A stretch of 64,000 bases of DNA from Candidatus Stoquefichus sp. SB1 (GTDB lineage: Bacteria > Bacillota_I > Bacilli_A > Erysipelotrichales > Coprobacillaceae). Where the stretch lies: NCBI RefSeq assembly GCF_001244545.1, contig NZ_LN852692.1, positions 62,001 through 126,000 of the forward strand, written 5' to 3'. Positions 62,728 through 64,000 of the stretch are shown in pieces (the first letter of the stretch is position 1; each line of letters starts with the position of its first letter). Made by a program: the position numbers and the translations under genes. The notes under the pieces were generated by a model. That model saw nothing but the letters and a program-made list of their open reading frames with translations. It was not told where the DNA came from and did no database searches.

Positions 62728-62765
62728 AAAGGACATCCATTATGAAAATGGATGTCCTTTAATGA
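62728..62765 (+). terminator. Terminator before the invertible region
   Basis: AAAGGACATCCATT pairs perfectly (14 bp) with AATGGATGTCCTTT after a 5-nt loop. It insulates the downstream switch region. Confidence 0.87.
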
Positions 62766-62770
62766 TGTTG

Positions 62771-62796
62771 TTTTCGTAGAATAATCTATTCTACGA
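62771..62796. repeat. Left inverted repeat of the candidate invertible promoter
   Basis: A 26-nt repeat whose core AGAATAATCTATTCTA is itself a near-perfect palindrome. It matches the reverse complement of 62930-62955 at 24 of 26 positions. Confidence 0.82.
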
Positions 62797-62801
62797 CATG
62801 A

Positions 62802-62830
62802 ATTATAGCATATATCATTTTTAAATGAAA
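62802..62830 (-). promoter_or_regulatory. Promoter inside the invertible segment, currently facing left
   Basis: On the minus strand TTTCAT, 17 bp and an extended -10 TGC-TATAAT (62807-62802). Transcription would start within the left repeat and run toward the terminator at 62728, away from the antiterminator genes. Confidence 0.68.
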
Positions 62831-62929
62831 GGTCAAATTTGTTTTCTCTTATTTTGCAAATATTTTATTTGCTATTAATAAATATATTTGCTAATAAGGA
62901 ATATTTTCTTCTTTTTTTCTTTATATTTT

Positions 62930-62955
62930 TCCTAGAATAGATTATTCTGCGAAAA
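62930..62955. repeat. Right inverted repeat of the candidate invertible promoter
   Basis: Inverted partner of 62771-62796, with the identical 16-nt core in opposite orientation. It lies 30 bp before the start of the first antiterminator gene. The segment between the repeats is 133 bp. Confidence 0.82.
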
Positions 62956-62984: not shown

Positions 62985-63488
62985 ATGTATTGGTATATTG
63001 CTCATGTGAATGAGAATAAAAAAACTAAACTGGTGAAATTCTTTAATAGTCAGGAAAATACCAATGCTTTTATTCCTAAAATGGAAAAATGGTACAGTAT
63101 GAAGGGTATAAAGGATTATATCATTAAAGATTTGTATCCAGATTATGTGTTTATTAAGAGTCCATTAGATTTGGAAGAATTTAATAAATGTTTTAAAGAG
63201 TTTTTTGAGACTGTTGATGGATTTGCTCAATTACTAGGATATGATGATGTTTATCCATTAAGTGAGAGTGAACAATCTTTGATGGAAAAATTATTTGATA
63301 ATCAGGATGTCATTAAACATTCAGTAGGGAATATAGTCAATTCTCAATTGATTGTTGATGAAGGTCCATTAATGAATATGGAAGATAAAGTAATTAAGAT
63401 TAATCGTCATCATAGAATAGCAACTTTAAAAACTGAACTGTTCAATAATAGATTAATTGTTCCTTTAGAGGTTATAAGTAAAACATGA
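62985..63488 (+). CDS. NusG/LoaP-like transcription antiterminator, first
   Basis: A 167-residue protein with an N-terminal NGN domain (MYWYIAHVNENKKTKLVKFFN, AFIPKMEKWYSM, LYPDYVFIKSPLDLEEF) and a C-terminal KOW-like segment (DEGPLMNMEDKVIKINRHHRIATLKTE). Specialised NusG paralogues of this type (LoaP, UpxY) bind RNA polymerase to drive long polysaccharide or antibiotic operons. ATG 62985 follows AGGAG; the TTG at 62976 is too close. It would be read from the invertible promoter only in the flipped orientation. It overlaps the next gene by four bases. Confidence 0.85.
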   Translation: MYWYIAHVNENKKTKLVKFFNSQENTNAFIPKMEKWYSMKGIKDYIIKDLYPDYVFIKSPLDLEEFNKCFKEFFETVDGFAQLLGYDDVYPLSESEQSLMEKLFDNQDVIKHSVGNIVNSQLIVDEGPLMNMEDKVIKINRHHRIATLKTELFNNRLIVPLEVISKT

Positions 63489-63976
63489 ATTGGTATGTCT
63501 TATTTACATTAAGTCAAAAGACAAATCAAATTGTCTCTCATTTAAATAGAAGAGACAATATTGATGCATTTATACCAGAATATGAATTTTATTATAGAAA
63601 GACAAAGGAATATCTCATTAGACCTATGTTTCCTAACTATATATTTGTTAAGACAAATTATAATCAATTAGATTTTAATATTATGCTTAATAAGATGGGT
63701 GAAGAAAAGGATGGAGTCATTAGACAATTAAGTAAAGATGATGTATCAGCTTTAAGAAAAGAAGAAATAGAAATGTTTGAATTATTATTAGATGCTAATC
63801 ATGTTGTAAGGATGTCCCAAGCATATTTACAAGATGGCAGAGCTAAGGTTTATGAAGGACCGTTACAAGCATTTGAAAAACAGATTGTTAAAGTTGATGT
63901 TCATAATCAGTGTGCTTACCTTGATTTAATCTTTATGAAGAGAAGGATCAAAGTAGGACTCAAGATAGACAAGTAA
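63485..63976 (+). CDS. NusG/LoaP-like transcription antiterminator, second
   Basis: A 163-residue paralogue of the preceding protein: MNWYVLFTLSQKTNQIV, AFIPEYEFYYRKTKEYLIRPMFPNYIFVKT (NGN), then YEGPLQAFEKQIVKVDVHNQC (KOW). Two such genes overlapping in one transcript are unusual. They may act as a heterodimer-like pair, or one may be an antagonist. A ribosome binding site (GGGGAGAA) near the window end shows at least one further gene follows. Confidence 0.86.
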   Translation: MNWYVLFTLSQKTNQIVSHLNRRDNIDAFIPEYEFYYRKTKEYLIRPMFPNYIFVKTNYNQLDFNIMLNKMGEEKDGVIRQLSKDDVSALRKEEIEMFELLLDANHVVRMSQAYLQDGRAKVYEGPLQAFEKQIVKVDVHNQCAYLDLIFMKRRIKVGLKIDK

Positions 63977-64000
63977 AAATAAACTGGGGAGAATGGTATA

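Follow-up and report, generated by a model that had tools for sequence, protein, structure and literature searches.

A probable invertible promoter before tandem LoaP-like NusG genes in Candidatus Stoquefichus, one of seven such switches in the genome

The promoter segment and its tandem NusG genes

The window, meaning the whole 64-kb stretch of DNA analysed here, belongs to the 3.59-Mb genome of a Candidatus Stoquefichus species (Coprobacillaceae) and carries near its end two tandem plus-strand genes for LoaP-like NusG paralogues. The first-type gene (62985-63488) encodes a protein with an NGN and KOW-like fold, and the second-type gene (63485-63976), which overlaps the first by 4 nt, encodes the proposed leader-binding antiterminator. 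Downstream lie LegB, LegC, NeuB and NeuC (above cut-off) and a NeuD-family gene, together with an exopolysaccharide sugar transferase and a MurJ-like flippase, which make this a nonulosonic (legionaminic- or sialic-type) acid glycan cluster.

Upstream of the NusG genes are two inverted arms of 26 nt (62771-62796 and 62930-62955), complementary at 24 of 26 positions and spaced 133 nt apart, exactly as an earlier preliminary description had reported. No other inverted pair of such quality exists in the window at 50-400 nt spacing, and 15 dinucleotide shuffles of the full 64 kb produced none as good at that spacing. What had been described as a palindromic 16-nt core is not simply a palindrome, as each arm resolves into a 25-nt site in which two inverted 9-nt half-sites flank an asymmetric 7-nt core, TAATCTA. 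The left site, TTCGTAGAA-TAATCTA-TTCTACGAC, occupies 62773-62797 on the plus strand (core 62782-62788), and the right site, whose reverse complement reads TTCGCAGAA-TAATCTA-TTCTAGGAA, occupies 62929-62953 on the minus strand (core 62938-62944). The whole switch thus covers 62773-62953 (181 bp), and the invertible segment, delimited from site to site (62798-62928), rests on repeat geometry and on segment alignments.

Just within the left arm lies a minus-strand promoter (62802-62829) directed away from the NusG genes, which bears out the earlier assignment of the present orientation as OFF. The extended -10 element TGCTATAAT (62802-62810) was also correctly identified and points outward. The -35 element TTCATT (62824-62829; 3/6 matches, 16-nt spacer) is weak, most sister switches having TTGAAA or TTGATT at the same 16-nt spacing. 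Flipping the segment in silico would place the transcription start near 62931, within the right repeat as had been predicted and 54 nt upstream of the ATG at 62985, and the arm would then form the first hairpin of the transcript. On the OFF side of the switch, a perfect 14-bp hairpin (62728-62760) is inferred to terminate the outward transcript and would insulate the upstream gene.

For both NusG proteins, LoaP (NCBIfam NF033641) is the best family, at 101.6 and 99.6 bits, without its cut-off of 125 being met; UpxY (NCBIfam NF033644) scores 33.4 and 44.4 bits, its cut-off of 100 likewise not being met. Since both genes are nearest to LoaP, the comparison previously drawn with the UpxY capsule operons of Bacteroides holds as an analogy of layout and not as family membership. 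Structure models (pLDDT 88 and 91) best match the solved NusG-RNA complex 8f5g, with TM-scores of 0.69-0.82; this entry is presumably the LoaP-RNA structure mentioned in PMC12691694. On a tree, a deep branch (support 100/99) separates the first genes from the second genes, and at four leader-bearing loci with only one gene identified (L056, L306, L312 and L314) that gene is of the second type; one of these loci (L312) starts near a contig end, such that its first gene may be cut off. Elsewhere in the genome, a bona fide LoaP gene (187.7 bits at C4:592260; L055 4218-4769, C4:592218-592769) stands before polysaccharide genes without inverted repeats and perhaps represents a non-switching locus.

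Related sites across the genome and the linked recombinase

The search for other repeat copies and for a recombinase that had been suggested as a check was positive on both counts: these half-sites recur in six further pairs, one of which encloses a matching tyrosine recombinase gene, so that the two refuting conditions open to examination both failed. In all seven pairs, half-sites of the form TTCGYAGAA/TTCTRCGAA flank a 7-nt core. Allowing up to 3 mismatches, TTCGYAGAAYNNNNNATTCTRCGAA matches 13 positions in the 3.59-Mb genome, compared with 0 for the reversed control, and these comprise six pairs and one site with a more divergent partner 135 nt away; the initial appearance of this seventh site as an orphan was ruled out by that partner. 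The 16-nt core was uninformative as a search pattern, its 2-mismatch matches barely exceeding the control. Every pair lies upstream of NusG-like genes and faces polysaccharide genes, five of them being placed before tandem NusG pairs and two before single genes, namely one at C4:295010 and a divergent one at C2:213549. In the seventh pair the half-sites are more divergent, and no RNA leader is recognised there. Distinct glycan genes are also found at the C5 locus and at the seventh locus, the clusters of the other four switches being without detailed annotation.

The promoters follow the same plan. In the five short switches the promoter lies just within the left arm and points outward from the NusG genes, as it does in the C5 switch, and reading of the seventh switch gives a minus-strand, outward promoter of the form TTGCAA-17-TATAAT. 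Most switches share the arrangement TTGAAA/TTGATT-16-TGnTATAAT, which stops 2-4 nt short of the arm. In a relative from the same genus (G001), two single sites (L098 7473-7497 and L099 7511-7535) have outward promoters with neither a partner nor a recognised NusG gene nearby.

The most informative property of the sites is how they vary. Among 24 pairs from this genome and its relatives, within-pair mismatches number 0 of 168 core positions versus 53 of 432 half-site positions (p=1e-8, a generous value given that some relatives are near copies); in this genome alone the figures are 0 of 49 versus 18 of 126 (p=0.002). Between loci of this genome, in turn, cores differ at 52% of positions and half-sites at 16%, and the 24 pairs, each with the same core in both of its sites, include 21 distinct core sequences. 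Core identity within pairs combined with half-site drift points to a tyrosine recombinase requiring overlap identity, and this pattern, by inference, would explain how one enzyme could serve many loci without joining wrong partners.

Such an enzyme is encoded inside the C5 switch (C5:468690-469640). RecC5, a tyrosine recombinase of 316 aa with Pfam Phage_integrase (PF00589) and SAM-like domains, carries intact GLRIGE, HxLRH, LGHS and LYVH motifs corresponding to the expected R, HxxR, H and Y, and these catalytic residues are kept across the recombinase alignment. Homologues (39-81% identical) occur in Beduini, Thomasclavelia and a second Stoquefichus inside switches of about 1.1 kb, in the order site, promoter, recombinase, site, NusG, NusG; a recombinase gene is seen inside one switch in this genome and inside most switches of the relatives. 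Catalytic residues and a matching 7-nt overlap (6-8 bp expected) satisfy what is required of a tyrosine recombinase system, and the requirement of an inverton for a cognate recombinase is met by RecC5 and the switches of the relatives, with activity inferred. An Mpi-type system would require a serine recombinase linked to the sites, which is not the case for these tyrosine-type enzymes. RecC2, 36% identical to RecC5, adjoins the seventh switch. As the window switch contains no recombinase, RecC5 or RecC2 would need to act in trans, and which of them does so is a matter of inference. Viral contigs yielded only more distant integrase relatives, the plasmid search gave no match of at least 60% identity, and PADLOC returned no result.

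Several minor features accompany these enzymes. Within the C5 switch, 1666 nt are repeated exactly and in tandem on either side of a single N (L053 2565-5897, G000:C5), which looks like a scaffolding overlap artefact, the true segment being about 2.8 kb with one transposase copy; the transposase gene (L053 2412-3713) is inserted between the promoter and the recombinase gene. In genomes of the Thomasclavelia group, a second recombinase family, RecC2-like, is located next to or within variant sites close to NusG pairs (L308, L310 and L322), the variant at L308 being GTCGTAGAG...CTCTACGAC.

An RNA leader behind the NusG genes

In six of the seven switches, the last NusG gene is separated from the first polysaccharide gene by a conserved RNA leader. 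At the window locus it starts at 63976-64000 on the plus strand as a hairpin followed by a terminator and lies mostly beyond the window (C2:125976-126075). Its general anatomy is a variable-stem hairpin, followed either by a terminator hairpin with a T-run or by a related GGGGUAGGGG region with a later terminator; six of 15 leaders have their terminator in a distinct hairpin farther along.

Across these 15 sequences, 93% of alignment cells can pair, with changes on both sides at nine pairs, and the covariation score was matched by none of 500 shuffles and was lost when the structure was slid along the alignment. The structure was nevertheless set by hand from a few of the same sequences after realignment, so the slide control leans towards it, and RNAalifold missed it in the first leader alignment. 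No matching family was found in Rfam. A covariance model identifies exactly six copies in the genome, each directly behind a switch NusG gene, the window leader scoring best; all six were in the training set, and the genome gave no other match. Held-out hits in relatives lay directly behind a NusG-like gene at 10 of 14 inspected loci. Weak hits near tyrosine recombinases without a NusG gene were also seen in another genome (L317, L318 and L319 in G022), seven in that genome.

The hairpin sequence tracks the second protein (partial correlation 0.55, p<0.001) and not the first (0.08, p=0.22). This supports recognition of the hairpin by the second protein without proving it, as close linkage could give the same result. 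One locus (L096) is chimeric, its first NusG gene and core being C6b-like and its second NusG gene and hairpin C6a-like. Measured against a LoaP-type leader, in which a recruiting hairpin precedes an intrinsic terminator, the anatomy is met, a UNCG loop is not recognised, and protein binding remains inferred.

Orientation, proposed mechanism and known systems

Inverted repeats that enclose a promoter upstream of a gene satisfy the structural definition of an inverton, and the segment in the window is very probably an invertible promoter flipped by site-specific recombination. With six others it would make up a capsule/exopolysaccharide phase-variation system spread over the genome, in which LoaP-like antitermination is inferred to be switched. 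The observation made in the preliminary description is confirmed by this analysis, and its interpretation is supported as largely right but too small in scope, the locus being one of seven switches.

All seven switches are OFF in this single assembly. By promoter or recombinase direction, about 20 loci are OFF and four are ON: L095 (Beduini massiliensis), L104, L109 and L311. The inner segments of L095 and L311 match those of other loci on the minus strand, in mirrored order (L311 1-294 with L114 1118-823 at 75%, for instance), and homologous but inverted segments mean that orientation has changed during evolution. Two of the ON switches may be locked, the left arm of L109 being degenerate and the recombinase of L311 broken. 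Both orientations are observed, but between species and not within one strain; no reads are available for this strain, in which flipping is inferred.

The uniformly OFF state of the assembly, together with the weak -35 element and the lack of a recombinase in the segment, would also be compatible with a window locus that was once able to invert and has since become locked OFF. This is improbable, however, because the core is perfect with only 3 half-site mismatches, the NusG genes are intact, the leader is the best-scoring one in the genome, RecC5 is intact elsewhere, and a recombinase is likewise absent from the segments of the genome's remaining short switches. Operators can be near-palindromic sites flanking a promoter, and the arms are near-palindromic and do flank one, so they could in principle serve as paired sites for a repressor or looping regulator without any recombination. 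Such an explanation is more improbable still, since the core is constant within each pair yet varies from locus to locus at roughly half of its positions against shared half-sites, a pattern for which an operator would have no need, and it leaves unexplained both the recombinase gene inside many pairs and the inversion of homologous segments. Hardly credible is the proposal that these are recombination sites served by a serine invertase or an unrelated phage or transposon integrase, with an incidental promoter effect: the three resolvase-family genes and 16 tyrosine-recombinase matches of the genome offer candidates, but the entire 7-nt core is kept, beyond the 2 bp that serine invertases require, RecC5 is the sole close match to the switch-linked family (RecC2 following at 36%), and the conserved promoter is placed at the arm edge.

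Under the favoured reading of an invertible promoter, a tyrosine recombinase, most likely RecC5 in trans, would bind the inverted 9-nt half-sites and exchange strands in the 7-nt core, where partner cores must match, such that the locus-specific core would let each site pair solely with its own partner. In the OFF orientation, as here, the promoter is expected to fire outward into the hairpin terminator; in the ON orientation it would transcribe both LoaP-like genes. The second protein is then proposed to be recruited by the RNA hairpin 3' of its own gene and to carry polymerase past the terminator into the polysaccharide genes, an antitermination step that is inferred. The first protein may be an accessory factor, possibly a cross-locus modulator, and its role is likewise inferred; a trans-inhibitor of the UpxZ type, by comparison, acts against non-cognate antiterminators.

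Gut Bacteroidales are well known to phase-vary capsules at multiple loci by means of invertible promoters combined with NusG-type antiterminators. The present system looks like an independent Gram-positive version, working like the Bacteroides one but built of LoaP-like parts and a tyrosine recombinase. In Bacteroides fragilis, invertible capsule promoters operate with Mpi and UpxY/UpxZ (PMC12632263), and the resemblance extends to a genome with several capsule loci, to the placing of an invertible promoter at each of them ahead of two regulatory genes, one being a NusG-paralogue antiterminator, and to a single global recombinase for many loci. In contrast, here both genes are NusG paralogues and LoaP-like instead of UpxY, the recombinase is of the tyrosine type and is often encoded within the switch on which it acts, cores are particular to each locus, and a leader hairpin with terminator lies 3' of the NusG genes.

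LoaP antitermination is known from the dfn and mln leaders of Bacillus velezensis (PMC12691694), where a long biosynthetic operon is likewise preceded by a NusG paralogue and a small RNA hairpin with an intrinsic terminator behind it, and the fold is that of the NusG-RNA complex 8f5g; the present proteins differ in scoring below the curated LoaP cut-off, in forming a tandem pair under DNA-inversion control, and in the absence of a recognised UNCG hairpin. Megabase inversions at capsule clusters with LoaP occur in Eggerthella lenta (PMC13174815), which combines the same two elements through inversions of about 2 Mb over a 16-bp repeat, with no short promoter switch. Clostridioides difficile is a Firmicute with RecV-mediated site-specific recombination at several loci (cwpV, flg and pdc; PMC8890394, PMC9286219), but with other genes and sites, and the abstracts mention neither a NusG pair nor a capsule operon. 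In Clostridia, inverton group 139 is statistically linked to nearby tyrosine recombinases (group 35; PMC11892184), a comparable association, any identity of its motif with the present sites being conjectural; Bacillus-like Firmicutes have a median of 0 invertons (PMC11892184). No description of such a system was found in the open-access papers searched, which is weak evidence with subscription papers outside the search, and nothing relevant emerged there on inversion in Stoquefichus, Coprobacillaceae or Thomasclavelia.

A parallel design in the Coprobacillaceae (Candidatus Stoquefichus, Thomasclavelia and Beduini) suggests convergent bet-hedging logic in a second phylum, and cultured strains would allow phage escape and immune recognition of Firmicute capsules to be tested. 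The core pattern provides a testable rule for how one recombinase may serve many switches without wrong joins, and the leader family offers a set of candidate RNA-NusG cognate pairs. A more detailed scenario can be held only tentatively and is, on balance, doubtful: the system would have arisen independently of the Bacteroides network, cassettes carrying their own recombinase would have seeded recombinase-free daughter switches throughout the genome, private 7-nt cores would act as addresses against cross-talk, and the second NusG would read a locus-specific hairpin and the first enforce capsule choice.

Related recombinases within long inverted repeats of similar sequence were additionally observed at nine loci of Lachnospiraceae, Ruminococcus and other Clostridia (L116, L117, L138, L142, L162, L169, L180, L186 and L188), with neighbours including glycosyltransferase, Ser/Thr kinase, TadZ-like and radical SAM genes, which suggests a wide family of self-carried switches. 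At three further loci (L143, L159 and L174), the gene immediately behind a recombinase enclosed by an inverted repeat encodes a Cas12f1-like/TnpB-type nuclease domain.
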